A DNA stretch of 64,000 bases from contig NZ_FOPH01000011.1 of the NCBI RefSeq assembly GCF_900113415.1, positions 1-64,000 on the forward strand, in the 5' to 3' direction. Below are positions 5,245-62,845 of this stretch, in pieces. Below the pieces are notes generated by a model that made no database searches, had not been told where the DNA came from, and saw only the letters and a list, made by a program, of their open reading frames with translations. How positions within the stretch are numbered: the first letter of the stretch is position 1; every line of letters starts with the position of its first letter. The translations under genes and the position numbers were made by a program. This stretch comes from Oribacterium sp. WCC10. Its GTDB lineage: Bacteria > Bacillota > Clostridia > Lachnospirales > Lachnospiraceae.

Positions 5245-5361
5245 TTGAGCGTTCAGCCACGTGCTTTTGAGCGCTTCAAAGGAATCTGTAAGGATTCCTG
5301 CTCATTGCACAAGAATGTGTGCGTTGGCACTAATCGGTGAGTGGCAAACACTTTTGACATG
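5245..5361 (+). repeat. intergenic palindromic element, right half
   Basis: This matches the right half of the full element at 16635-16907 (segments GAGCGCTTCAAAGGAATCTG, AAGGATTCCTGCTC and GAATGTGTGCGTT). It ends in a degenerate version of the hairpin, GTGAGTGGCAAACACTTTTG. It lies between the binding-protein and ATPase genes. Confidence 0.8.
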
Positions 5362-6854: not shown

Positions 6855-6910
6855 TTCTCAATCCTTAATTTTATATACTGAAAAAATATCAGCTAAAACT
6901 GAATCGAAAA

Positions 6911-6980
6911 TTCGATAGTCCGGTAATTTACGGCAACCGGGTAGAAACATCAAATCCATATTATTTGACCTATATCGATA
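6911..6980 (-). promoter_or_regulatory. purine riboswitch aptamer, guanine type
   Basis: On the minus strand the conserved core elements are all present: P1 TCGATA / TATCGA, P2 CAAAT / ATTTG with loop AATATGG, junction GTTTCTACC, and P3 CGGT / ACCG with loop CCGTAAA. The residue that pairs with the ligand is C (GGACTAT, the position equal to C74 of the B. subtilis xpt aptamer), which specifies guanine/hypoxanthine rather than adenine. It controls the lipoprotein-ABC-xpt operon, most likely switching it off when guanine is abundant. Confidence 0.95.
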
Positions 6981-6991
6981 AAATCCAATTT

Positions 6992-7020
6992 ATGGTATCA
7001 AAGTAGAAATATTAATTCAA
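6992..7020 (-). promoter_or_regulatory. candidate promoter of the purine operon
   Basis: On the minus strand TTGAAT (7015-7020) and TACCAT (6992-6997) are separated by 17 bases, a few bases before the aptamer. It is the only reasonable match between the ispD terminator and the riboswitch. Confidence 0.5.
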
Positions 7021-11606: not shown

Positions 11607-12020
11607 TCAATACTCAATTTTTCTGTAGTCAAAGCCCTTTTCGAGATCCTTTTTGATGCGGATCCAATGAGCTTCTTCAGGGATCAGTTCTTCTATAAGC
11701 TCAGGCCATTCTATGATAGTGACGCCTTTGCCATAGAAATACTCCTCATATCCTATCTCTTCCATCTCGGATGGATCACCGATACGGTATACATCAAAAT
11801 GATAAAGAGGAAGACGACCTTCATACTCCTTGACTATGGTGAAGGTTGGAGAATTAACATAATCGTTTATGTCAAGTCCGGCAGCAAATCCCTGTGTAAA
11901 AACAGTTTTACCAACTCCAAGATCACCATCAAGGCAGATGATATCTCCGGGCTTTGCGGCTTCTCCAAGTTTTTTTCCGAATGCGAATGTCTCATCCGCA
12001 GAATTGCTTTCAAAAAACAT
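11607..12020 (-). CDS. tsaE: tRNA threonylcarbamoyladenosine biosynthesis ATPase TsaE
   Basis: 137 residues. The Walker A DGDLGVGKT (31-39) and the segment SPTFTIVKEYEG are characteristic. TsaE hydrolyses ATP to reset the TsaBD complex after each t6A reaction. It lies between the ACT-domain gene and tsaB with short spacers, so the three t6A assembly genes are transcribed together. Confidence 0.95.
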   Translation of the reverse strand: MFFESNSADETFAFGKKLGEAAKPGDIICLDGDLGVGKTVFTQGFAAGLDINDYVNSPTFTIVKEYEGRLPLYHFDVYRIGDPSEMEEIGYEEYFYGKGVTIIEWPELIEELIPEEAHWIRIKKDLEKGFDYRKIEY

Positions 12021-16606: not shown

Positions 16607-16634
16607 GTCGGCACAGGAACTTTAAATTTATTTC

Positions 16635-16907
16635 ATGATGTAAGGGTCAAAAGTACCAAATCACGTGCCTGCACGTTGATTTGAGACTTTATGACCCGCC
16701 CGAACACGAATAACGTAGTCGTTTTGCATAGCAAAAGGACCTAAGTTTGAGTGTTCAGCAGCACAACTGCCTTCGATTTTTAATCGAAGGAGCCACGCGG
16801 CTTTGAGCGCTTCAAAGGAATCTGCAAGGATTCCTGCTCTATGCACACGAATGTGTGCGTGCTGTGCATCATCAGTGAGTGGCAAATACTTTTGACACTC
16901 ACGTCAT
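16635..16907 (+). repeat. complete MITE-like palindromic element (type copy)
   Basis: A 273-bp element whose ends are imperfect inverted repeats: left ATGATGTAAGGGTCAAAAGT, right (reverse complement) ATGACGTGAGTGTCAAAAGT. From left to right it holds the following modules. Module A (16635-16700) contains CAAATCACGTGC and TTTGAGACTTTATGACCCG. Module B (16701-16757) contains AACGTAGTCGTTTTGCATAG and ends GAGTGTTCAG. A linker palindrome follows, CTTCGATTTTTAATCGAAG. Module C runs to the end, with hairpin GCACACGAATGTGTGC and end hairpin GTGAGTG...CACTCAC. It has no credible open frame. Related copies are listed separately. Confidence 0.85.
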
Positions 16908-16921
16908 TTCATATTTTGAGC

Positions 16922-16958
16922 CAAAAAAATTAAGAGGAGATCTGTATAAGTCTCCTCT
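16922..16958 (-). terminator. terminator of the metal P-type ATPase operon
   Basis: On the minus strand AGAGGAGA / TCTCCTCT is followed within a few bases by seven T residues, just after the 32-residue ORF. Confidence 0.8.
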
Positions 16959-16975
16959 CAATCATTAAACCTGTT

Positions 16976-17074
16976 TTAGTGTTTTGAAACCATTTTATGT
17001 CCGGTCCAAAGACAGACGATTCCCGCGATCACCATAATGATCGCACTCCATTTATGCCATTTGAAATAATTCAT
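16976..17074 (-). CDS. 32-residue single-pass membrane peptide
   Basis: Sequence begins MNYFKWHKWS, then a hydrophobic helix (about 11-25) containing a Gly, and ends TGHKMVSKH. ATG at 17074 is preceded by AAGGAGCAGCTT, a strong site; a longer in-frame reading lacks one. It lies about 175 bases after the P-type ATPase stop and before the terminator, so it is probably the third gene of that unit. His and Lys in both tails could contact metal, but that is speculation. I do not recognise a named family with certainty. Confidence 0.6.
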   Translation of the reverse strand: MNYFKWHKWSAIIMVIAGIVCLWTGHKMVSKH

Positions 17075-17109
17075 AAGCTGCTCCTTATTCTGATTCAAAC
17101 ACCGATCAT

Positions 17110-17187
17110 ATGACGTGAGTGTTAAAAGTAATTGCAACTCACTGATTAGCGCCAACGCACATATTCGCGTGCAATATGCGTACATCA
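17110..17187 (-). repeat. palindromic element, right half, inverted
   Basis: Begins with the end sequence ATGACGTGAGTGTTAAAAGT and continues with ACTGATTAGCGCCAACGCAC and a GCACAT...ATGCG hairpin, which is module C in reverse orientation. It lies between the P-type ATPase and the small membrane peptide. Confidence 0.75.
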
Positions 17188-17248
17188 TCGTATAGTAAAG
17201 CAGTCCCGATTATGATCGGGAAAATGCTTTGGTTTCTGATTATTATAC

Positions 17249-19330
17249 TTAATCTGACAGCGGAGTCATACTATGAAGTCCTATGCCGATGGTGGACAGA
17301 TTGTGAAGTAATGATGCCGATGAAGGAGTCAGAATACCCATGGCACCGAGTCCTATGAGTATACTGTTAAAACTCATGATGCTACGGTAATTGCCATTAA
17401 TTCTTTTTGTAAGAGAATCTGCAATCCGACGCATACGGACTATCTCTTCAAGTGAACCGTTGGAAATCACAATATCCGCAACTTCCTGAGCAATCGGTGC
17501 TCCGTTTGAAACGGCAAGTCCGACGTCGGCTTCTGACAGTGCAGGTGTATCATTGATGCCATCTCCTACCATGATAACCTTACGTCCCTTTTGATGCTCT
17601 GAACGTACAAATGCCGCCTTATCTTCAGGCAGAACTTCCGCATGGAATTCATCAAGACTCAGCTTTTTTGCCACAGCTTCAGCAGTCTTGCAGTTATCTC
17701 CTGTCATCATGCATATCTTATTTATGCCCATATGATGAAGATGTTTGATAACATCCGCAGCTTCTTCTCTTATAGGATCTTCTATGCAAAGAACGGCCGC
17801 AAGCTTTCCGTCTACTGCGAGATACAAAGGAGAATACTGCACCGGAATGGAGTTGTATTTCTCCTGTTCGACATCGTTGACTTCGATTTTTTCGTCTTCC
17901 ATTATGAAATGATGACTTCCGATAACGGCACGTTTTCCGTTTATGGTGGTCGCTATACCGTGGGCAACAATGTACTCTACCTTCGTATGGAATTCGTCGT
18001 GGCTAATGTTTCGATCAGCTGCTTCCTTCACAACTGCATTGGCAATGGAATGAGGGAAATGCTCCTCCATGCATGCGGCGAGCCTGAGAGCCTCTGTCTC
18101 AGACCATCCGTCAAAGGTGATGATGTCTGCAACCTTTGGTGTGGCATGAGTCAGAGTTCCGGTTTTGTCAAATACTATAGTTTCCGCTTCTGAAACCGCC
18201 TCAAGGAATTTGCCACCCTTAACAGAGATGTCGTGCTTACCTGCATCGCGCATGGCTGACATCACAGACAGCGGCATGGACAGCTTTAGTGCGCATGAGA
18301 AATCAACCATAAGGAATGACATGGCACGGGTAATGTTTCTAGTCAGCAGATATGTGAGGCCCATACCGATGAAAGCTCCCGGAACGAGCTGATCTGCAAG
18401 ATGATATGCCGCCGTGACAGTATTGCTCTTCAGCTTCTCGGAGTCTTCGATCATTTTAACTATCTGATCATACTTTCCTTTGCCGGCCTTTTGGGTGACT
18501 TTGTAAACAAGTTCGCCCTCATTAAGTACTGTTCCGGCAAAGACAGAAGCTCCTTCTGTCTTGAACACAGGGGCTGACTCCCCAGTCATGGATGCCTGAT
18601 TGACACTGGCTTCACCGGAGATTACCACACCATCAAGAGGTATGACATTGGAGGTACGTACGATGACCATATCTTCTGTGTTGACCTCATTGGTATTGAC
18701 TAATACTTCCTCGCCATCAGGACATTTGATCCAGACGCGGTCTGCGTGAAGGCTCATCATCTCCGCCAGGTCATCCACAGATTTCTCACGGGTCCAGTCT
18801 TCAAGGATATCGCCGATACCCTGCAGGAAGATGACATTGCCCGCTGTGTCAGGATCACCGCGTAAGAGGGATGCGCCGATGGCAGCTGCATCAAGAACTG
18901 TAACCTCGATTTTGCCATGAATAAGAGATCGTAATCCTTTGGCAAAATAAGGAACAGCTGTTATCACTGTTATGGCGGTGTTCAGTACAGCTGGGAAAAA
19001 CAAGGTTCGAAATCCCTTATTGAGTATGCTGAAAACCAGTTTTTCCTCGTATTTGTTGCGCATCTCACGCCCTGTATGTTCAGGAACGAGAGCGCGTATT
19101 TTTTCGTCCTCATAATCCAGCTCGGAAAGTGCCTGTATAACGGCGCGACGATTGCCGCGTTTATACTTGATGATGGCGTTGCCTGTTCGCTCATAAACAC
19201 GAACATCATCCACACAGCTTAAGTTTCGGATGGCATATTCTGCCATATCTGCCTGCTGGGCAGTCATACGGAACCTGTCGATGTGGACACGCATACGACC
19301 GGAGGATTCATGTAAAATTCTGCAATTCAT
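17249..19330 (-). CDS. P1B-type metal-transporting ATPase with SCA motif (P1B-6-like, FezB-like)
   Basis: 693 residues. Visible: N-terminal domain with HESSGRMRVHI (7-17) and no CxxC metal site; TGES (249-252) of the actuator; DKTGT phosphorylation site (388-392); MTGDN and GDGINDTPALSEADVG in the catalytic domain. The key transmembrane metal motif is SCA (345-347, in DFSCALKLSMP), not CPC, SPC or CPH, so copper, zinc/cadmium or cobalt specificity should not be assumed. From memory of P1B subgroups, SCA marks P1B-6, the class including FezB of iron-storing ferrosomes. The HP motif region reads EEHFPHSIANAV. It follows a glycine-zipper protein gene by 36 bases. Confidence 0.85.
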   Translation of the reverse strand: MNCRILHESSGRMRVHIDRFRMTAQQADMAEYAIRNLSCVDDVRVYERTGNAIIKYKRGNRRAVIQALSELDYEDEKIRALVPEHTGREMRNKYEEKLVFSILNKGFRTLFFPAVLNTAITVITAVPYFAKGLRSLIHGKIEVTVLDAAAIGASLLRGDPDTAGNVIFLQGIGDILEDWTREKSVDDLAEMMSLHADRVWIKCPDGEEVLVNTNEVNTEDMVIVRTSNVIPLDGVVISGEASVNQASMTGESAPVFKTEGASVFAGTVLNEGELVYKVTQKAGKGKYDQIVKMIEDSEKLKSNTVTAAYHLADQLVPGAFIGMGLTYLLTRNITRAMSFLMVDFSCALKLSMPLSVMSAMRDAGKHDISVKGGKFLEAVSEAETIVFDKTGTLTHATPKVADIITFDGWSETEALRLAACMEEHFPHSIANAVVKEAADRNISHDEFHTKVEYIVAHGIATTINGKRAVIGSHHFIMEDEKIEVNDVEQEKYNSIPVQYSPLYLAVDGKLAAVLCIEDPIREEAADVIKHLHHMGINKICMMTGDNCKTAEAVAKKLSLDEFHAEVLPEDKAAFVRSEHQKGRKVIMVGDGINDTPALSEADVGLAVSNGAPIAQEVADIVISNGSLEEIVRMRRIADSLTKRINGNYRSIMSFNSILIGLGAMGILTPSSASLLHNLSTIGIGLHSMTPLSD

Positions 19331-19366
19331 TTTTGCTCTCCATAGTCAGGTATGGTTCGGAAATGA

Positions 19367-19702
19367 TCAGTTTTCAGCATCTGCTTCATCTGCTTTTTTG
19401 GCAGCCTCAAGCTCTTCAAGGTGAGCCTGTGCTTCCTCAATCTTTGCCTTTGCGTCGATGATAGCCTTCTCTTCTGCTTCCTTTGCGCGCTTCTCGTTAA
19501 TGTCTAATGCATCAGCATAGATATCGTCACAGTTCTCACGGATTGTAGTTCCGGTTTTCATAACTGTATCTTTGCATCTCAGAACAGCAGCTGTGCAGTG
19601 AGTATAAGCCTTCTTGAGGTCATTGCTCTTGAGAATGCTGATACCTGCTGTACCAAATAAAACTCCGCCTGCAAAACATGCAACTTTTTTCCAACTAATC
19701 AT
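19367..19702 (-). CDS. glycine-zipper membrane-anchored coiled-coil protein (DUF6110-like)
   Basis: 111 residues. The N-terminus has a short hydrophobic segment with a glycine zipper (Gly12, Gly13, Gly17, Gly20 in FAGGVLFGTAG). A conserved-looking middle follows (KKAYTHCTAAVLRCKDTVMKT, ENCDDIYADALDINEKR), then an Ala/Glu/Lys-rich coiled coil (about 72-108). I recall such proteins as DUF6110, found beside P-type ATPases in clostridia. It is the first gene of the metal unit, divergent from an AraC regulator. Role inferred: membrane partner of the ATPase; compare FezA-type proteins of ferrosome loci. Confidence 0.75.
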   Translation of the reverse strand: MISWKKVACFAGGVLFGTAGISILKSNDLKKAYTHCTAAVLRCKDTVMKTGTTIRENCDDIYADALDINEKRAKEAEEKAIIDAKAKIEEAQAHLEELEAAKKADEADAEN

Positions 19703-19870
19703 GGTTTATATCCTCCATTCATCACTTATGGGAATTCTACGGAAGGTAATCCGGTAGAACTCTTAAATACTTTTACTTAAAATAGAAATATATCATATAA
19801 TCATTGTGGAAAATTGCCCATATGTCCAGATTTGCGAAAATGTCTATTTTACGTTAAAATGGGTCTTATT

Positions 19871-20944
19871 ATGAAGATTGTAGAAAAACTAAAAAAAGAA
19901 CTTTGTAGTTTGCCGGATGGAAGTTATCGGGAAGAGGAAAAATGTTTCAGGTCAGATATAGATTCAGGCGGAATGATAATCATGTATCCACTGTTCCCCG
20001 GGATAGTTCTGTCATGGATAAAGATACGCCCGCAGGAACTCAAGGTTCCGGAACAGGTGGAACACTCTCTCGTTAAAAATCATATAATCAAGCTTAACTG
20101 GTGCCGAAGCGGACGATGTGAAATGATTACGGAGAACAATAATTTCATATACATAAAGTCCAATGAGATATCCATTTCTACTGAGCAGGCCAGGAATAAG
20201 TTTCGCTATCCTGCGAAGACCTATACGGGAATAGAAATATTTCTGTCAATAGATGAAATAGTGGAAAATGGAGAAACATTTATACCCTATGATATAGACT
20301 TTTCGAATTTTGAACATCGATTTATGAATGGCAGTGATACACAGATCTCTGCTGTTCCTGAGAAGGTCAGAAATATATTGAATTCGATGTATCAGTCTAT
20401 AGAGCAAAAGGTCGAAAGCAAACTTTCAAACTTAACTGGCGGGTCAGTTACGAGTCCGAATGAATCGGACCAGTTTCTGATAAATGGAAATGATAATAAT
20501 GATGTTTTAGTGCCAAGGCTTCGTGTGCTGACTGTGGAGTTGTTTTTTCTGCTGATGCATGATGTACTTCTGAAAGAGACAGCTACACATCCGCATCTCC
20601 TGCCAAAGCAGGTTAAAGTGGCTCGTATGGCTGAAGAAATTCTTACCCTGGATTTGTCAAAGCCGGTATCCATCTCTACAGCGGCCGCACAGCTCGGTAT
20701 CAGTGCAACAACTTTGAAGAGATTCTTTTATAATGTCTATGATATGAATGTTTCGGAGTATATGAAGAAAAAACGTATGGAAAAAGCTTCGGAACTTCTG
20801 AAAGACAGGTCGGTATCAGTTGCTTCCATTGCTTCAGCTGTCGGGTACAGCAGTACCGGACATTTTTCCAAAGCTTTCAGGGAATATTACGGGGAGACAC
20901 CGCTTAATTACCGTAATTTCAGAAAAGTGACGATAAAGGACTAA
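19871..20944 (+). CDS. AraC-family transcriptional regulator
   Basis: 357 residues from ATG at 19871, with GGG about eight bases upstream; an earlier in-frame start adds 19 residues of doubtful value. The C-terminal double helix-turn-helix (about 260-355) has the AraC signature VASIASAVGYSSTGHFSKAFREYYGETPLNYR. The N-terminal 230 residues form an uncharacterised sensing part. It is transcribed away from the metal ATPase operon and shares its 168-bp control region, so control of that operon is the likely job. Confidence 0.88.
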   Translation: MKIVEKLKKELCSLPDGSYREEEKCFRSDIDSGGMIIMYPLFPGIVLSWIKIRPQELKVPEQVEHSLVKNHIIKLNWCRSGRCEMITENNNFIYIKSNEISISTEQARNKFRYPAKTYTGIEIFLSIDEIVENGETFIPYDIDFSNFEHRFMNGSDTQISAVPEKVRNILNSMYQSIEQKVESKLSNLTGGSVTSPNESDQFLINGNDNNDVLVPRLRVLTVELFFLLMHDVLLKETATHPHLLPKQVKVARMAEEILTLDLSKPVSISTAAAQLGISATTLKRFFYNVYDMNVSEYMKKKRMEKASELLKDRSVSVASIASAVGYSSTGHFSKAFREYYGETPLNYRNFRKVTIKD

Positions 20945-20970
20945 AAAAGGACAGCCCACAGGGCTGTCCT
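20943..20970 (-). terminator. terminator shared by hpf and the AraC gene
   Basis: A 10-bp perfect stem AGGACAGCCC / GGGCTGTCCT with a 3-nt loop has TTTTTT after it on the minus strand. It lies between two convergent genes and overlaps the end of the AraC gene. Confidence 0.85.
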
Positions 20971-20999
20971 AAAGTTTTGTTATAATCAGGATCCAATCA

Positions 21000-24082: not shown

Positions 24083-24331
24083 ACTTAACCTCACTCTAAT
24101 ACGCTTAAACAGCGGAATAAACAGATTTAATCGTCCGGAATGCAGTGTGGCACAGGTTGTGTCTGCTGTATCGTCGTCGGCTGGGAATGCATAGCCATCC
24201 GGATCATAAAACAGTTTTGGATGAAAACTACTATAACGATGTTTGCTGTTATCGGGCAATAAATAAAGAATTAAAGTTTTCTGTCAATTGTTCATAGAAA
24301 ATATCTGATTTATGGTTTGCAATGTGCTTCG

Positions 24332-24375
24332 CATCATCAGTGAGTGGCAAATACTTTTGCCACTCACTGATGATG
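24332..24375. repeat. perfect 20-bp palindrome of the repeat family; likely terminator
   Basis: Two perfect 20-bp arms (CATCATCAGTGAGTGGCAAA and its complement) flank the loop TACT. It lies 22 bases after the SDR stop codon. The core matches the end hairpin of the 273-bp element, but here both arms are extended and identical. Confidence 0.85.
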
Positions 24376-28889: not shown

Positions 28890-29018
28890 AGATGCAAGGG
28901 TTAAAAGTACCAAATCACGTGCTTGCACGTTAATTTGAGACCTTATGACCCTACCGAACACAAATGTGTGCGTTGACGTTAATCCGTGAGTGGCAAATAC
29001 TTTTGACACTCACGGCAT
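28890..29018 (+). repeat. palindromic element, short form with both ends
   Basis: A 129-bp copy. Left end GATGCAAGGGTTAAAAGTAC, then CAAATCACGTGC and TTTGAGACCTTATGACCC (module A). It joins directly to AATGTGTGCGTT and the end hairpin CCGTGAGTGGCAAA...TTTTGACACTCACGG. Module B and the linker are missing, so internal deletion or modular assembly is implied. Confidence 0.85.
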
Positions 29019-31084: not shown

Positions 31085-31115
31085 ATGGAGCAAATACTTT
31101 TGACACTCACGTCAT
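31085..31115 (+). repeat. palindromic element, right end only
   Basis: GCAAATACTTTTGACACTCACGTCAT-type end sequence without its left arm, in the gap between the TRIC and UPF0597 genes. Confidence 0.6.
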
Positions 31116-32493: not shown

Positions 32494-32600
32494 ATGAGTC
32501 AAGGTACAAATGCCTATCCCACAAATCAAGCTTGCTTGAGAGTGGGGGAGAGACTCTATGATCCGCATCATCAGTGAGTACCAAAAGTATTTGCCACTCA
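32494..32600. repeat. palindromic element, variant
   Basis: Left part is a module A variant (ATGAGTCAAGGTACAAATGC, CCCACAAATCAAGC, GAGACTCTATGATCCGC). The right part is GCATCATCAGTGAGT followed by an inverted hairpin TACCAAAAGTATTTGCCACTC. A second module A variant occurs at 53471. Confidence 0.65.
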
Positions 32601-32672: not shown

Positions 32673-34055
32673 TTATTTCTGTTTTTTAGCGTAGAAGTAA
32701 ACAAGGATAGGAATAATAACATATCCGATGAACATTGATACTATTGCAAAGTAGTTAAGGCTTGTGCCGGCCTCTGTAGTTGTCGAGAAGCTGCCTGCCC
32801 AGTTGAACTTGAAAAGAAGAAGTGCTGTAAGTACAAGTGAAAGTACAGAAACCACAACATCGGTTGTGAAGTTCTTCTTTGCTGTCTCAACAGTAGGATT
32901 CTTGGTATTTCCGTAGTAGAACATGATAACCGCGATAGGTACGAGAATGAACTGTACGAAACGTGCAATGGTTGAAATGATCATGATACCTTTCATGTCA
33001 TAAGCAAATGCCATAGGAATCACGATTGCGAATAATGTTGTAATGATGAAAGCATTAACAGGGATATCCTTTGCGTTTCTCTTTGCAAATACTGAAGGAA
33101 CCTGCTTTCTGTGAGCCATAGCCTCGAGAAGTCTTGGTGTGTGGAATGAAGAAGCCACGTTGATACCGAACATTGAAACAAATGCACCGATGACAACGAT
33201 ATTCTTGATGACAGGATTCTGGAAAACGTCTGCAAGGACAACTACTGATGAACTTGTCACCATGGCAACAGGATCGATCATCATGGCTGTAAGGATGATT
33301 CCGAAGTAGATGGCTGCAACTATTCCAATGGCAACAGGGATAGCTCTTGGAAGGTTTTTCTCAGGCTCTTCCATATCTTCTGCTCCACTGGCAACACTCT
33401 CAAATCCTGTGAATGCATAGAAAGCAGCAACAAGTGCTGTTACGAAATTGGTTGTTGTCATCTCAGGTACAACCTTGATGCCGTCAGCATTAACAAGAGC
33501 ATCAACTTCTGCCATGTGGTTACCTGTCATCATGGCAATAACTATGCCGGCAAGAATTGCGATTACGAGAGCAACGCATTTACCGATGGTTGAAAGGTTT
33601 GAAACCAGTGAGAAAATCTTAGTTCCCATGACATTTACAATGAAGAGAACGATCATAAGGATAATGAATCCGACGGTCTGCATGCCGAAAGTGATATCAG
33701 CTGACGAATATCCGAAGATCTGAAATGCTGTCTTGATAACGCCGGTTGCCATAACGCCCCATGCGATACTTGCAGAAACAAATCTTGTGATTCCTACATA
33801 GAGACCTGCATCATCTCCGAAAGCTGTTCGTACATAAGCGTAGGCAGCACCACTCTCTTTTGTGTACTTACTTGCACTTGCAAAGGTGAGAGCAAGGATT
33901 ACAGCGAAAATAGCGGCACATATATAAATGAACGGTGCCATACTTCCTGACTGCTTTGCGACTCCTCCGGGTGAAAGGAATATACCCGTTCCGATGATTG
34001 AGTTGATGGTCAGCATAACAATGGACCAGAATTTAAGTTTTGTTTTTTGTTCCAT
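32673..34055 (-). CDS. APC-family amino acid permease
   Basis: 460 residues with about twelve membrane helices. The N-terminal INSIIGTGIFLSPGGVAKQSG is the APC superfamily signature, and the helix 6 region AFYAFTGFESVASGAEDMEEPEKNLPRAI is also typical. It imports or exchanges amino acids; substrate unknown. ATG at 34055 has AAGGAG seven bases before it. The 5' untranslated region is unusual: a 46-bp unit with this same ribosome binding site is present three times in tandem (34054-34191). Confidence 0.92.
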   Translation of the reverse strand: MEQKTKLKFWSIVMLTINSIIGTGIFLSPGGVAKQSGSMAPFIYICAAIFAVILALTFASASKYTKESGAAYAYVRTAFGDDAGLYVGITRFVSASIAWGVMATGVIKTAFQIFGYSSADITFGMQTVGFIILMIVLFIVNVMGTKIFSLVSNLSTIGKCVALVIAILAGIVIAMMTGNHMAEVDALVNADGIKVVPEMTTTNFVTALVAAFYAFTGFESVASGAEDMEEPEKNLPRAIPVAIGIVAAIYFGIILTAMMIDPVAMVTSSSVVVLADVFQNPVIKNIVVIGAFVSMFGINVASSFHTPRLLEAMAHRKQVPSVFAKRNAKDIPVNAFIITTLFAIVIPMAFAYDMKGIMIISTIARFVQFILVPIAVIMFYYGNTKNPTVETAKKNFTTDVVVSVLSLVLTALLLFKFNWAGSFSTTTEAGTSLNYFAIVSMFIGYVIIPILVYFYAKKQK

Positions 34056-34191
34056 GACTATCTCCTTGAAAAATTTCTATACTATCAGGTTGAAGGGCGA
34101 TGACTATCTCCTTGAAAAATTTCTATACTATCAGGTTGAAGGGCGATGACTATCTCCTTGAAAAATTTCTATACTATCAGGTTGAAGGGCG
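34054..34191. repeat. three perfect 46-bp tandem repeats containing a ribosome binding site
   Basis: Units at 34054-34099, 34100-34145 and 34146-34191 are identical. On the minus strand each ends with AAGGAGATAGTCAT, the site that serves the permease. Only the copy next to the gene is followed by G to give ATG; the other two read ATC. Each also contains the segment GATAGTATAGAAATTTTTC. Confidence 0.98.
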
Positions 34192-34311
34192 ATGTTCTGT
34201 CCTTTTATTTCGATGAGCGCACATTGTTCGAAATGTGTGCAGGGTTTTGCTCAATCAGAGCAGTTTCAATACAAAGAATTATGTGTCTGATGTCCGCATA
34301 AAACAGATATA

Positions 34312-36086: not shown

Positions 36087-36118
36087 CGTGAGTGACAAAT
36101 ACTTTGTCACTCACGTCA
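36084..36118. repeat. perfect palindrome of the repeat family between convergent genes
   Basis: 16-bp perfect arms TGACGTGAGTGACAAA and its complement around loop TAC. The first three bases are the stop codon of the XRE gene, and the opposing DUF2264 gene ends three bases beyond. It probably serves as a terminator for both. Confidence 0.85.
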
Positions 36119-36120
36119 TT

Positions 36121-38094
36121 TTACAGGTATATGAATTCTGTTTTCAGATGACTGGTTCCCGCCGTGATATCGTAAACACACATCGGTATCGTGGTTTTCG
36201 GATATATCAGGCTGGTGTTAGGTTCAGGAACCAGCAGATCCTCTCTTCCGTTTCCTTCCAAAGAATGAACGGTGCAGAACAGATCATCATATGATGGGAT
36301 GACAACTGAAGGGGCAGATGTCTCCTGACTTTCAACATTTTTCATAGTTTTGTCATCTATAAAATGATGGGGCAGGGATTCCTCTTTGAAGCAGGACTTA
36401 TCGGGAATCGCAAATCCGCAGTCGCAGGCTTTTATCAAAACTCCATCGTAAAGTGTTTTATCAACATCTACTATATGTTCTCTTGTATGCCCGGTTTCTG
36501 TCGGTATCAGCACCGTGGTTACGTTAATTCCTCTCACGGGACTCCATCGCATCTCGATATGTTCTTTATCTATGACGTAGTCCGGTTCAGTCATATTTTT
36601 TGTGTAAACAAAACCGTCTATAACAAATGCCAGAGTGGAGTCCGGAGCATTTTCCTGAAGGTTCATGTTTGATCGGGCAATGCTGAAGCCGAATCTGCTG
36701 CTGTAGGCGAATTTAGAATACTTCTCCACGTTATGACTGTGTCCTTCGTGGTTGGTCTTTCCGGGAACCAGTGCCACCACATGATTGCAGACCCCATCCT
36801 TATATCCCCGCTGCAGGAGCAAGGGAACATGAGGGAGGAATAATGAATCAGCGATGTCTTTAGAATCGGATAAATCCCCGGGGGTCTTTGTGACATTCCA
36901 GAGCTCGTCTTCATCCTTTAGCGAAAGATAGAAAAATGCCTGAAGTCCCCAATATGGTGATCCCGGAGCATTATAACTCTCCGACATCTGAAGATTCGGG
37001 TAGCCGTAGCCTATGGAGAGGATTCCGGCATTATCAAATACCGGACGGTTCAGCCACCAGTGAAGGTTTTTGGAAATCAGCGAAAGCATCTCTTCCTTCG
37101 GGATTGGTTCTACATTGGTCTGCAAACATGTGGCCCAAAAGGCGCTTTGTGCGAAACGGTAGGTCATGGAACGCCCATAGGGGAAGCAGGCACCGTTGTC
37201 ATCAAAGAAGTAACGGTAGTCTTTTCCGAACTTCATGGCACGGTCATAGAAACGCTGGCATCTTTCAGGATCTTCATCCTTCATGAAATCACGGTAGATG
37301 AGACCGAAGCTCAGCATCACAAATGGATTGTAGTAGTCTTTGTCTCCGCCGTTTCCGTCATTGTACCAGCCGCCGCCTGCGTAATAGTCTTCGATCATAC
37401 GCAGTCCTGACTCCATATTTTCCTGACTGTATGTCAGGCCACTGACCTTTAGTGCAAGGTTTGTGATGATCTGGAAGAACTGCCAGTTGCAGGCGCAAAG
37501 GTTGTGACGATTGCATTCGTTAAGCCATTCTGTGAGATTGAGTTTGACATTCTCCGGCAGAGGGTCAAAGAAAAATTCAGGGGCGTAAAGCATAGCGAAG
37601 CCTATAGCCGGCATCTCGCAGAACTTCTGGTCGAAGTCATGACAAATCCCCCAGTATTCAGGTGACTCTGGTTCAGTTCCGGAAGTTATGCCTTTCTGAT
37701 AAATAAAAATCAGTTGAGCTATCTGAGTAAGACCGGAACCGGGCACGTCATGACATGAGTAAGAATTAGTTGTTTTATCAAGTTCTGAACAATCAAACCC
37801 GAGAGAAGATTCATCTGATTTATTATGACTTATCAGATGAATCAGTCTTTTTACTTCTTGCTTCTCTTCTTCTCTGAGGCCGGCAACCAGTGGTACAAGT
37901 CCCCAAAGCGGTCTTGCGAATGCCTCCATTTCCTGAGAAGAAAGCTCGTAGTGAGTTCGTGTATCACCGATACGGAGTCTTGCACATTTCTCGGAATAAA
38001 ATGGGATGAGTGGTTCAAGCATCTTTAAAAGGATGTTCTGAGCTTCTCGCTTATTCATAAAACTGTTTTGTTTGATGTTTTGGAATAGGTTCAT
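36121..38094 (-). CDS. DUF2264 domain protein, probable glycoside hydrolase
   Basis: 657 residues from ATG at 38094 (AGGTGG eight bases upstream). The N-terminal two thirds (about 10-380) match DUF2264, an alpha/alpha-barrel-like family (EAFARPLWGLVPL, YAGGGWYNDGNGGDKDYYNPF). I recall that some members act as exo-beta-glucuronidases (GH154), which would fit the neighbours. No signal peptide, so it acts inside the cell. A Ser/Asp-rich insertion (NKSDESSLGFDCSELDKTTN) lies around residues 110-135. It follows the GH2 gene by 28 bases. Confidence 0.82.
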   Translation of the reverse strand: MNLFQNIKQNSFMNKREAQNILLKMLEPLIPFYSEKCARLRIGDTRTHYELSSQEMEAFARPLWGLVPLVAGLREEEKQEVKRLIHLISHNKSDESSLGFDCSELDKTTNSYSCHDVPGSGLTQIAQLIFIYQKGITSGTEPESPEYWGICHDFDQKFCEMPAIGFAMLYAPEFFFDPLPENVKLNLTEWLNECNRHNLCACNWQFFQIITNLALKVSGLTYSQENMESGLRMIEDYYAGGGWYNDGNGGDKDYYNPFVMLSFGLIYRDFMKDEDPERCQRFYDRAMKFGKDYRYFFDDNGACFPYGRSMTYRFAQSAFWATCLQTNVEPIPKEEMLSLISKNLHWWLNRPVFDNAGILSIGYGYPNLQMSESYNAPGSPYWGLQAFFYLSLKDEDELWNVTKTPGDLSDSKDIADSLFLPHVPLLLQRGYKDGVCNHVVALVPGKTNHEGHSHNVEKYSKFAYSSRFGFSIARSNMNLQENAPDSTLAFVIDGFVYTKNMTEPDYVIDKEHIEMRWSPVRGINVTTVLIPTETGHTREHIVDVDKTLYDGVLIKACDCGFAIPDKSCFKEESLPHHFIDDKTMKNVESQETSAPSVVIPSYDDLFCTVHSLEGNGREDLLVPEPNTSLIYPKTTIPMCVYDITAGTSHLKTEFIYL

Positions 38095-41211: not shown

Positions 41212-41237
41212 TGAGTGTCAAATACTTTTGACACTCA
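41212..41237 (+). repeat. end hairpin of the palindromic element
   Basis: Perfect 11-bp arms TGAGTGTCAAA / TTTGACACTCA around TACT, upstream of the GH88 gene. Confidence 0.7.
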
Positions 41238-41286
41238 TCGATGATGCGCACTGATAGATGATTGCTTTATCTTAAAAAATTCGAAA

Positions 41287-42277: not shown

Positions 42278-42342
42278 TGTTGCACACGAACGTATGCGTT
42301 AGCTCTGATCAGTTAGTGGCAAATACTTTGACACTAACATGA
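42278..42342 (+). repeat. palindromic element, right half, between two permease genes
   Basis: GCACACGAACGTATGCGTTAG followed by CAGTTAGTGGCAAATACTTT and GACACTAAC. A further hairpin (ATCCGGTA / TACCGGAT, 42354-42382) lies beside it. Confidence 0.7.
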
Positions 42343-42443
42343 TTTGAACTGTCATCCGGTATAGTGCTTTGTTTACCGGATGGAGTCATTTGCTTCGGCA
42401 GAATGTATAAAAGTGGTAATGTTTCAGGTATTTACAAGTACTG

Positions 42444-45428: not shown

Positions 45429-45552
45429 ATGATGCAAGGGTCAAAAGTACCAAATCACGTGCATGCACACTGATTCGAGACTTTATGACCCGCAAGAACA
45501 CGAATAACGTAGTCGTTTTGCATAGCAAAAGGACCCAAGTTTGAGTGTTCAG
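45429..45552 (+). repeat. palindromic element, modules A and B, abutting a kinase gene
   Basis: Left end ATGATGCAAGGGTCAAAAGT, module A, then module B (AACACGAATAACGTAGTCG and GTTTTGCATAGCAAAAGGAC) ending GAGTGTTCAG. It breaks off at the point where the full element has its linker. The next base is 33 bases before the kinase start codon, so it forms the leader of that mRNA. Confidence 0.85.
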
Positions 45553-47511: not shown

Positions 47512-47585
47512 ATGATGTGAGTTTCAAGAGTATTTGCCACTCACAGATAAGCGCATCACGCACATAATCGTGCGAAATGTGATTT
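47512..47585 (-). repeat. palindromic element, right half, inverted
   Basis: ATGATGTGAGTTTCAAGAGT, TTTGCCACTCAC, AAGCGCATCACGCAC and the GCACATAATCGTGCG hairpin. It lies between the kinase and response regulator genes. Confidence 0.7.
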
Positions 47586-50956: not shown

Positions 50957-50957
50957 A

Positions 50958-51078
50958 ACACTCAATCTTGAATCCTTTTGCTATGCCAAACGACTACGTT
51001 ATTAGTTTTCAAGTGGGTCATAAAGTCTCAAATCAACGTGCAGGCACGAGATCAGGTACTTTTGACCCCTTACATCAT
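50958..51078 (-). repeat. palindromic element, modules A and B, inverted
   Basis: Reverse complement reads ATGATGTAAGGGGTCAAAAG, module A with CGTGCCTGCACG and TTTGAGACTTTATGACCC, then AACGTAGTCGTTTGGCATAG and GAGTGTTAT. It is close to the copy at 45429 and ends at the same internal boundary. Confidence 0.85.
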
Positions 51079-53470: not shown

Positions 53471-53510
53471 ATGAGTCAAGGGACAAAAGCCTGTCCCACA
53501 GATCAAGCTG
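53471..53510 (+). repeat. module A variant of the palindromic element
   Basis: ATGAGTCAAGGGACAAAAGC and CTGTCCCACAGATCAAGC, shared with the site at 32494. It lies between the heparinase gene and the gene upstream of it. Confidence 0.55.
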
Positions 53511-62760: not shown

Positions 62761-62845
62761 ATGATGTAAGTGCCAAAAGTACCAAATCACGTGCTCACAC
62801 GATGATTTGAGACTTTATGATCTGCCCGGACACACATAACTCATG
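62761..62845 (+). repeat. palindromic element, module A
   Basis: ATGATGTAAGTGCCAAAAGT, then CAAATCACGTGC and TTTGAGACTTTATGATCTG, fading into CACACATAACTCATG. It lies between the small lipoprotein gene and the second ABC operon. Confidence 0.75.

Follow-up and report, generated by a model that had tools for sequence, protein, structure and literature searches.

A modular MITE-like element of Oribacterium sp. WCC10 with 7-bp target-site duplications and its overlap with the Clostridiales-1 RNA family

In this study we describe a short repeated element of Oribacterium sp. WCC10 that is in all likelihood a non-autonomous DNA transposon of the MITE type. It lies in positions 1 to 64,000 of contig NZ_FOPH01000011.1 (assembly GCF_900113415.1), the whole stretch analysed here and called the window, and measures 269 bp. 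A preliminary description of the window, made from the letters alone, had presented the element as MITE-like, mobile and modular. The observation itself is confirmed, and exact 7-bp duplications together with empty sites in relatives bear this reading out. With imperfect inverted ends, an exact 7-bp duplication, an empty site and copies located outside open reading frames, the element behaves as a MITE. In addition, related elements with exact duplications frequently hold the RNA family RF01699 (22 of 29), so that in Lachnospiraceae Clostridiales-1 is often the body of a mobile element. As such, an Rfam 'sRNA' family of unknown function can be re-read, in many genomes, as part of a transposon, and its copies should therefore not be counted as independent RNA genes. 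The Lachnospiraceae at the same time gain a family of repeats suited to presence/absence typing. This raises the questions of why a transposon should retain an RNA structure that covaries, and of what enzyme mobilises it.

Structure, copies and insertion sites

The element had been placed at 16635-16907. It is present there, but this span had swallowed two bases of each flanking 7-bp repeat; the end pair and the exact flanking duplication set the true limits (Table 1). Its inverted ends are imperfect, as described before, with a length of 19 bp instead of 20: the left end GATGTAAGGGTCAAAAGTA and the right end read as reverse complement, GACGTGAGTGTCAAAAGTA, are identical at 16 of 19 positions. 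That the element contains no reading frame of substance agrees with the open reading frames listed, none of which, at 80 amino acids or more, lies inside it. The three internal modules are real as well, and copies composed of modules A and C join query position 137 to position 214. Folded as a single DNA strand the element has a z-score of -9.4 (0 of 200 shuffles were equally good), with predicted hairpins at both ends. The minimum-energy fold further contains a closing stem, GATGT/GCATC, just before the right-end hairpin. Because this stem is missing from the centroid fold, and because 9 of 18 copies in the same genome have CTAA in place of the required GCATC, we do not count it as shown for the window element. 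The right end also bears an outward TTTTGACA at 16890-16897 that resembles a -35 box and might create a promoter at some targets. A recruitment of the end hairpins as terminators, proposed earlier, is not supported for the copies scanned: between 16400 and 17300, a stretch with two copies, the only terminator-like match was an internal stem of 5 pairs on the minus strand, with 0.5 matches expected by chance.

Table 1. Positions of the element, its parts and its further copies in the window
Feature	Position	Strand	Basis or remark
Mobile element	16637..16905	+	end pair, exact duplication, precise empty site in G015
Left target-site duplication ATTTCAT	16630..16636	.	read directly; single in G015
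Right target-site duplication ATTTCAT	16906..16912	.	read directly; single in G015
Left terminal inverted repeat	16637..16655	+	from base 8 also 5' arm of first predicted hairpin
Right terminal inverted repeat	16887..16905	-	within predicted right-end hairpin
Rfam RF01699 Clostridiales-1 RNA match	16636..16786	+	48.7 bits, gathering 48; motifs of last RNA hairpin missing
Module A (left end and Clostridiales-1 5' part)	~16637..16765	+	limit from A+C copies
Module B	~16766..16841	+	missing from 195-bp A+C copies
Module C including right-end hairpin	~16842..16905	+	query 137/214 junction; fold
C-type element, 75 bp	17112..17186	-	7-mers ATCATAT/ATCGTAT, 6/7 alike; coordinates by eye
Module A copy ending at A/B border	45431..45552	+	query 1-130, 92%
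Module A copy ending at A/B border	50957..51078	-	query 7-127, 88.5%
A+C relative, 126 bp, both ends	28891..29016	+	without matching duplication
Partial copy	5255..5359	+	query 163-269 (BLAST)
Left-end partial copy	62763..62840	+	query 7-86 (BLAST)
C-module partial copy	47512..47572	-	BLAST
C-module partial copy	42281..42345	+	BLAST
Palindromic C-end hairpin	24324..24375	.	BLAST; no duplication by eye
Palindrome of right-end sequence	36088..36121	.	BLAST; no duplication by eye
Right-end remnant	31090..31115	+	BLAST
C-end hairpin remnant	32565..32600	.	BLAST
C-end hairpin remnant	41212..41250	.	BLAST

Fifteen sites in the window had been reported to carry all or part of the element, and 14 of them match it by BLAST at E<=0.01; the site at 53471 gave no match. 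By eye, the sites at 32494 and 53471 have a different 5' hairpin in common and perhaps belong to another subfamily. Within the 3.64-Mb genome the 19-bp end motif occurs 228 times when up to 3 mismatches are allowed, compared to 5 times for the reversed control, and at least 51 DNA matches to the 284-bp element query were found (40 of 241 candidates scored). The copies are scattered over many contigs, with identities to the focal copy of up to 97%.

To describe the insertion sites we used stretches of this genome that had been picked because they resemble the element or one of its ends, the flanks not being a criterion. An exact 7-bp duplication flanks 22 of the 29 nearest convergent end pairs examined (2.0% for mixed partners), and the repeat length is exactly 7 in all 22. 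Seven pairs have no exact duplication; in two of these (L045, L053) it is apparently shifted by one base, and both were left out of the count. Read on both strands of the 22 sites, the target has A in 42 of 44 cases, T in 40, any base, A or T in 44, any base, A in 40 and T in 42, that is ATNWNAT. The 7-mer varies between copies, yet it is identical on both sides of each. Element sizes range from 34 to 333 bp among the end pairs, with exact duplications around the 266-270-bp and 195-bp forms and around single forms of 333, 146, 126, 47 and 34 bp. Of the 22 duplicated sites, 18 were checked for their location and none of these copies lies inside an open reading frame of at least 120 amino acids, whereas 76% of points drawn at random from these loci do.

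Sites fixed in all relatives, with no empty counterpart, had been named in advance as the finding contrary to mobility; we saw empty sites for two copies. At the focal site, genome G015 (same genus, ~89% identical here) has one ATTTCAT and no insert. The left anchor of the alignment ends at window position 16636, which is G015 position 11962, and the right anchor starts at 16906, which is G015 position 11956. Both anchors thus use G015 11956-11962 (ATTTCAT), a 7-bp overlap, and 269 bp plus one repeat are missing. This empty site was seen in one relative only; elsewhere the locus is too diverged or rearranged. For a 195-bp copy (L029), the insert is missing from G011, G016 and G015 according to the BLAST coordinates, and the alignment to G011 contains just one target, slightly different in sequence. 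When six more sites of the window were aligned to G015, none proved to be another clean empty site; the rest were without usable anchors. The 75-bp element is missing from G015 at its place, in an alignment that is not a clean empty site. A stretch with a P-type ATPase gene (16639-20999) is missing in G011 and G016, directly beside the insertion point.

Public genome contigs were scanned for the target followed by the left end, which gave at least 119 stretches, and 80 loci were taken. Among the matches listed, many titles read Lachnospiraceae, and most of the other genera named presumably belong to this family too; two of the loci listed (L179, L193) are close relatives of the element from Oribacterium. 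At 29 of the 68 sites with room for it, an RTC end lies within 30-400 bp and is followed by an exact repeat of the 7-mer (null 0.6%), and 39 had no exact duplication; with one mismatch allowed the number rises to 36 of 68 (null 5.5%). As ATNNNAT on the left side was a criterion in selecting these sites, the public sample cannot confirm the target motif independently. A strict pattern was found in 3 of 146 genomes of the order (22 times each in the own genome and in G146, once in G057) and never for the reversed control. Two elements of G146 (L325, L331) are 245 bp long, 51 longer than the 194-bp form. An additional hairpin module, in which both have GACCGAAGCGGAGCGTA, sits at a different internal position in each and is possibly a nested repeat.

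Relation to the Clostridiales-1 RNA

The preliminary description recognised no named family, whereas we found that the left half of the element matches RF01699, Clostridiales-1, barely over the cut-off. Rfam types this family as sRNA. Its table entry in Weinberg et al. (2010, PMC2864571) reads 'y n n', Clostridiales, human gut, RF01699. Among the entries listed from the open-licence literature on Clostridiales-1 (RF01699), and on MITEs together with Lachnospiraceae, Butyrivibrio or Rfam, none presents these as mobile elements. The window copy aligns with model positions 1-166 and has 5 of 7 closing pairs standard; it keeps the first RNA hairpin. Since only 17 bases stand opposite 32 model positions, and since nothing in it matches the last hairpin's motifs within the allowed mismatches, we read it as a hybrid and not as a full family member: it retains both ends and the first RNA hairpin, and modules B and C stand where the last hairpin would be.

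At E<=0.001 the family was found in 29 of 61 genomes (the own genome, 13 of 16 of the same genus, 13 of 20 of the same family and 2 of 24 from other families of the order) and in none of 14 control genomes. Matches above the Rfam cut-off were present in 20 of the 61, and the maximum per genome was at least 38, which equals the number of candidates scored there. Its structure covaries strongly. For 30 aligned sequences taken from 15 genomes, pairing is seen in 92.3% of cells, compared to 69.7% in shuffles. Changes on both sides occur in 23 of the 24 pairs, and the cells concerned number 163, where shuffles give 40.3 (sd 6.8); the argument here is the size of the excess and not a p-value, because the alignment tested is also the source of the structure, and the shuffles do not preserve relatedness. 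The pairing is destroyed when the partners are slid. Among 34 distinct cases the closing stem, which stands outside this count, forms 6-7 of its 7 pairs in 33 (mixed partners 19%).

Of the 22 matches inside public elements with exact duplications, 17 score above 100 bits; the remaining 7 of the 29 elements are 37-161 bp long and have no RF01699 match. Because the Rfam model stops before the right end, a duplication becomes visible only when this end is set ~18-33 bp further out. By eye, duplications were then recognised at L031, L033, L087 (ATAGTAT on both sides) and L097 (ATGATAT), and among 50 RF01699 copies inspected not all show one. Fifteen of the 34 distinct cases do not begin with the GAT end, a few of which (L068, L032, L090) look decayed or offset. 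Hence RF01699 exists also outside these elements, in places with tandem partial repeats. At six loci (L040, L075, L081, L092, L093, L101) RF01699 copies are followed by tandem partial units that either have no 5' arm of the first hairpin or consist of the last hairpin alone. The own genome holds three copies of another type (L346, L347, L348) which start with TAAGTC and are without the described ends; in L348 about 17 of the first bases are repeated just past its end.

Could the repeats simply be an ordinary multi-copy family of small-RNA genes that does not move? The Rfam match and the strong covariation would fit this, and some copies without these ends differ in sequence yet keep their pairs. 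A promoter-like box lies just upstream of RF01699 in 9 of 21 copies that lack these ends (control 2 of 21). The corresponding boxes of copies with the terminal repeats (18 of 29, control 1 of 29) were not used as evidence, as the control is expected to fall mostly in coding DNA and ATNWNAT itself resembles a -10 box. Against immobile genes stand the exact 7-bp duplications and empty sites, the position of the RNA inside 22 of 29 exactly duplicated elements, and a window copy from which the last RNA hairpin's motifs are missing. Where these ends are present such a reading is already contradicted, and overall we consider it very unlikely. Elements without an RF01699 match also bear exact 7-bp duplications, which suggests that the ends are sufficient for movement and that the RNA is probably a passenger in transposition. 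It is conceivable, if rather unlikely, that Clostridiales-1 is instead a working part, its folded RNA or strand being recognised by a host-borne transposase, a domesticated enzyme that would keep orphan elements moving across Lachnospiraceae. The covariation of the stems, the closing stem of RF01699, in which the left end pairs with bases shortly ahead of the right end, and a sample without autonomous copies would all be compatible with this.

Possible modes of transposition

A fixed 7-bp duplication at varied sites, combined with inverted ends, is the footprint of DDE transposases. For the MITE reading, a DDE-type transposase supplied in trans may bind the ends, make staggered cuts 7 bp apart and paste the element in; shorter copies might derive from internal deletion. 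We infer action in trans because no copy seen carries an enzyme. Sizes down to 34 bp are hard to accommodate in a paired-end complex unless deletions came later.

No autonomous copy was found at the 80 sampled public left-end sites (57 with at least 1.5 kb to the right), at 21 sites of G146 (14 with more than 3 kb), or in the own-genome stretches examined, among end pairs 0.7-5 kb apart and small or edge contigs. A few distant end pairs or 7-mers were noted (L028, L175, L200, L204, L211, L223, L242, L247, L335). They were rejected as autonomous copies; at the first eight of them the intervening reading frames are, by eye, ordinary genes with no transposase. The transposase search covered DDE_Tnp_1 in the own genome and Y1_Tnp in 61 genomes. 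None of the four DDE_Tnp_1 genes of the own genome (IS1634- and IS4-type) has a matching pair of ends. In 63 stretches of viral contigs, each with one end-motif match, none had a second end with a duplication, and phage records gave no match to the element.

Other ways of moving, or of losing, the element have to be weighed. A REPIN-like or IS200/IS605-like element, whose hairpin single strand is moved by a Y1 transposase, would account for the predicted hairpins at both ends and for palindromes of 34-47 bp with exact duplications, and Y1_Tnp is present in 31 of the 61 relatives, including a few where RF01699 is abundant (G015, G019, G024). However, the own genome has no Y1_Tnp match, nor do G005, G007 and G018, with at least 30-38 RF01699 matches each. 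The 7-bp duplications also speak against it, as Y1 insertion to our knowledge makes no target-site duplication. The tiny palindromes, rejected as a mobile form in their own right, do not exceed the reversed control in frequency (2 of 37 genomes), and altogether a Y1 element seems highly improbable. A length of 7 bp is a possible overlap for tyrosine recombinases and could point to a cassette integrating with such an overlap, but a 7-mer that varies from copy to copy and is equal on both sides fits staggered cutting and repair, which makes a cassette less probable still. Least probable of all appears a loss from the relatives by deletion without any gain here. A deletion between 7-bp repeats can restore the site, and the focal empty site is known from one relative only; on the other hand, three relatives are without the 195-bp insert, and in this genome many contigs hold copies, whose identity with the focal one reaches 97%.

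Related systems and further features of the window

The element shares with RF01699 its 5' part, aligned over the gathering threshold, and most of the related duplicated elements contain a match to the family. In Rfam the family is an sRNA gene, whereas here it forms part of an element that has inverted ends and duplicates its target. Correia/NEMIS, RUP and bcr1 elements are likewise short, numerous, intergenic and without reading frames, with inverted ends and a duplication of fixed length. Their target duplications are TA or 5 bp, in contrast to the 7-bp ATNWNAT found here, where moreover no partner IS was found in a partial search and many members hold a covarying RNA. Pneumococcal BOX elements, likened here by description, are also modular, rich in hairpins and intergenic but differ in host group and ends. 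REPIN/RAYT systems resemble our element as hairpin repeats possibly moved in trans; here the own genome is without a Y1 gene and the 7-bp duplications are clear.

Two further features of the window were noted. Three identical 49-base copies with a 46-base spacing lie at 34054-34194, at the start of a minus-strand reading frame (32673-34055), and Rfam places a purine riboswitch at 6896-6997 on the minus strand.
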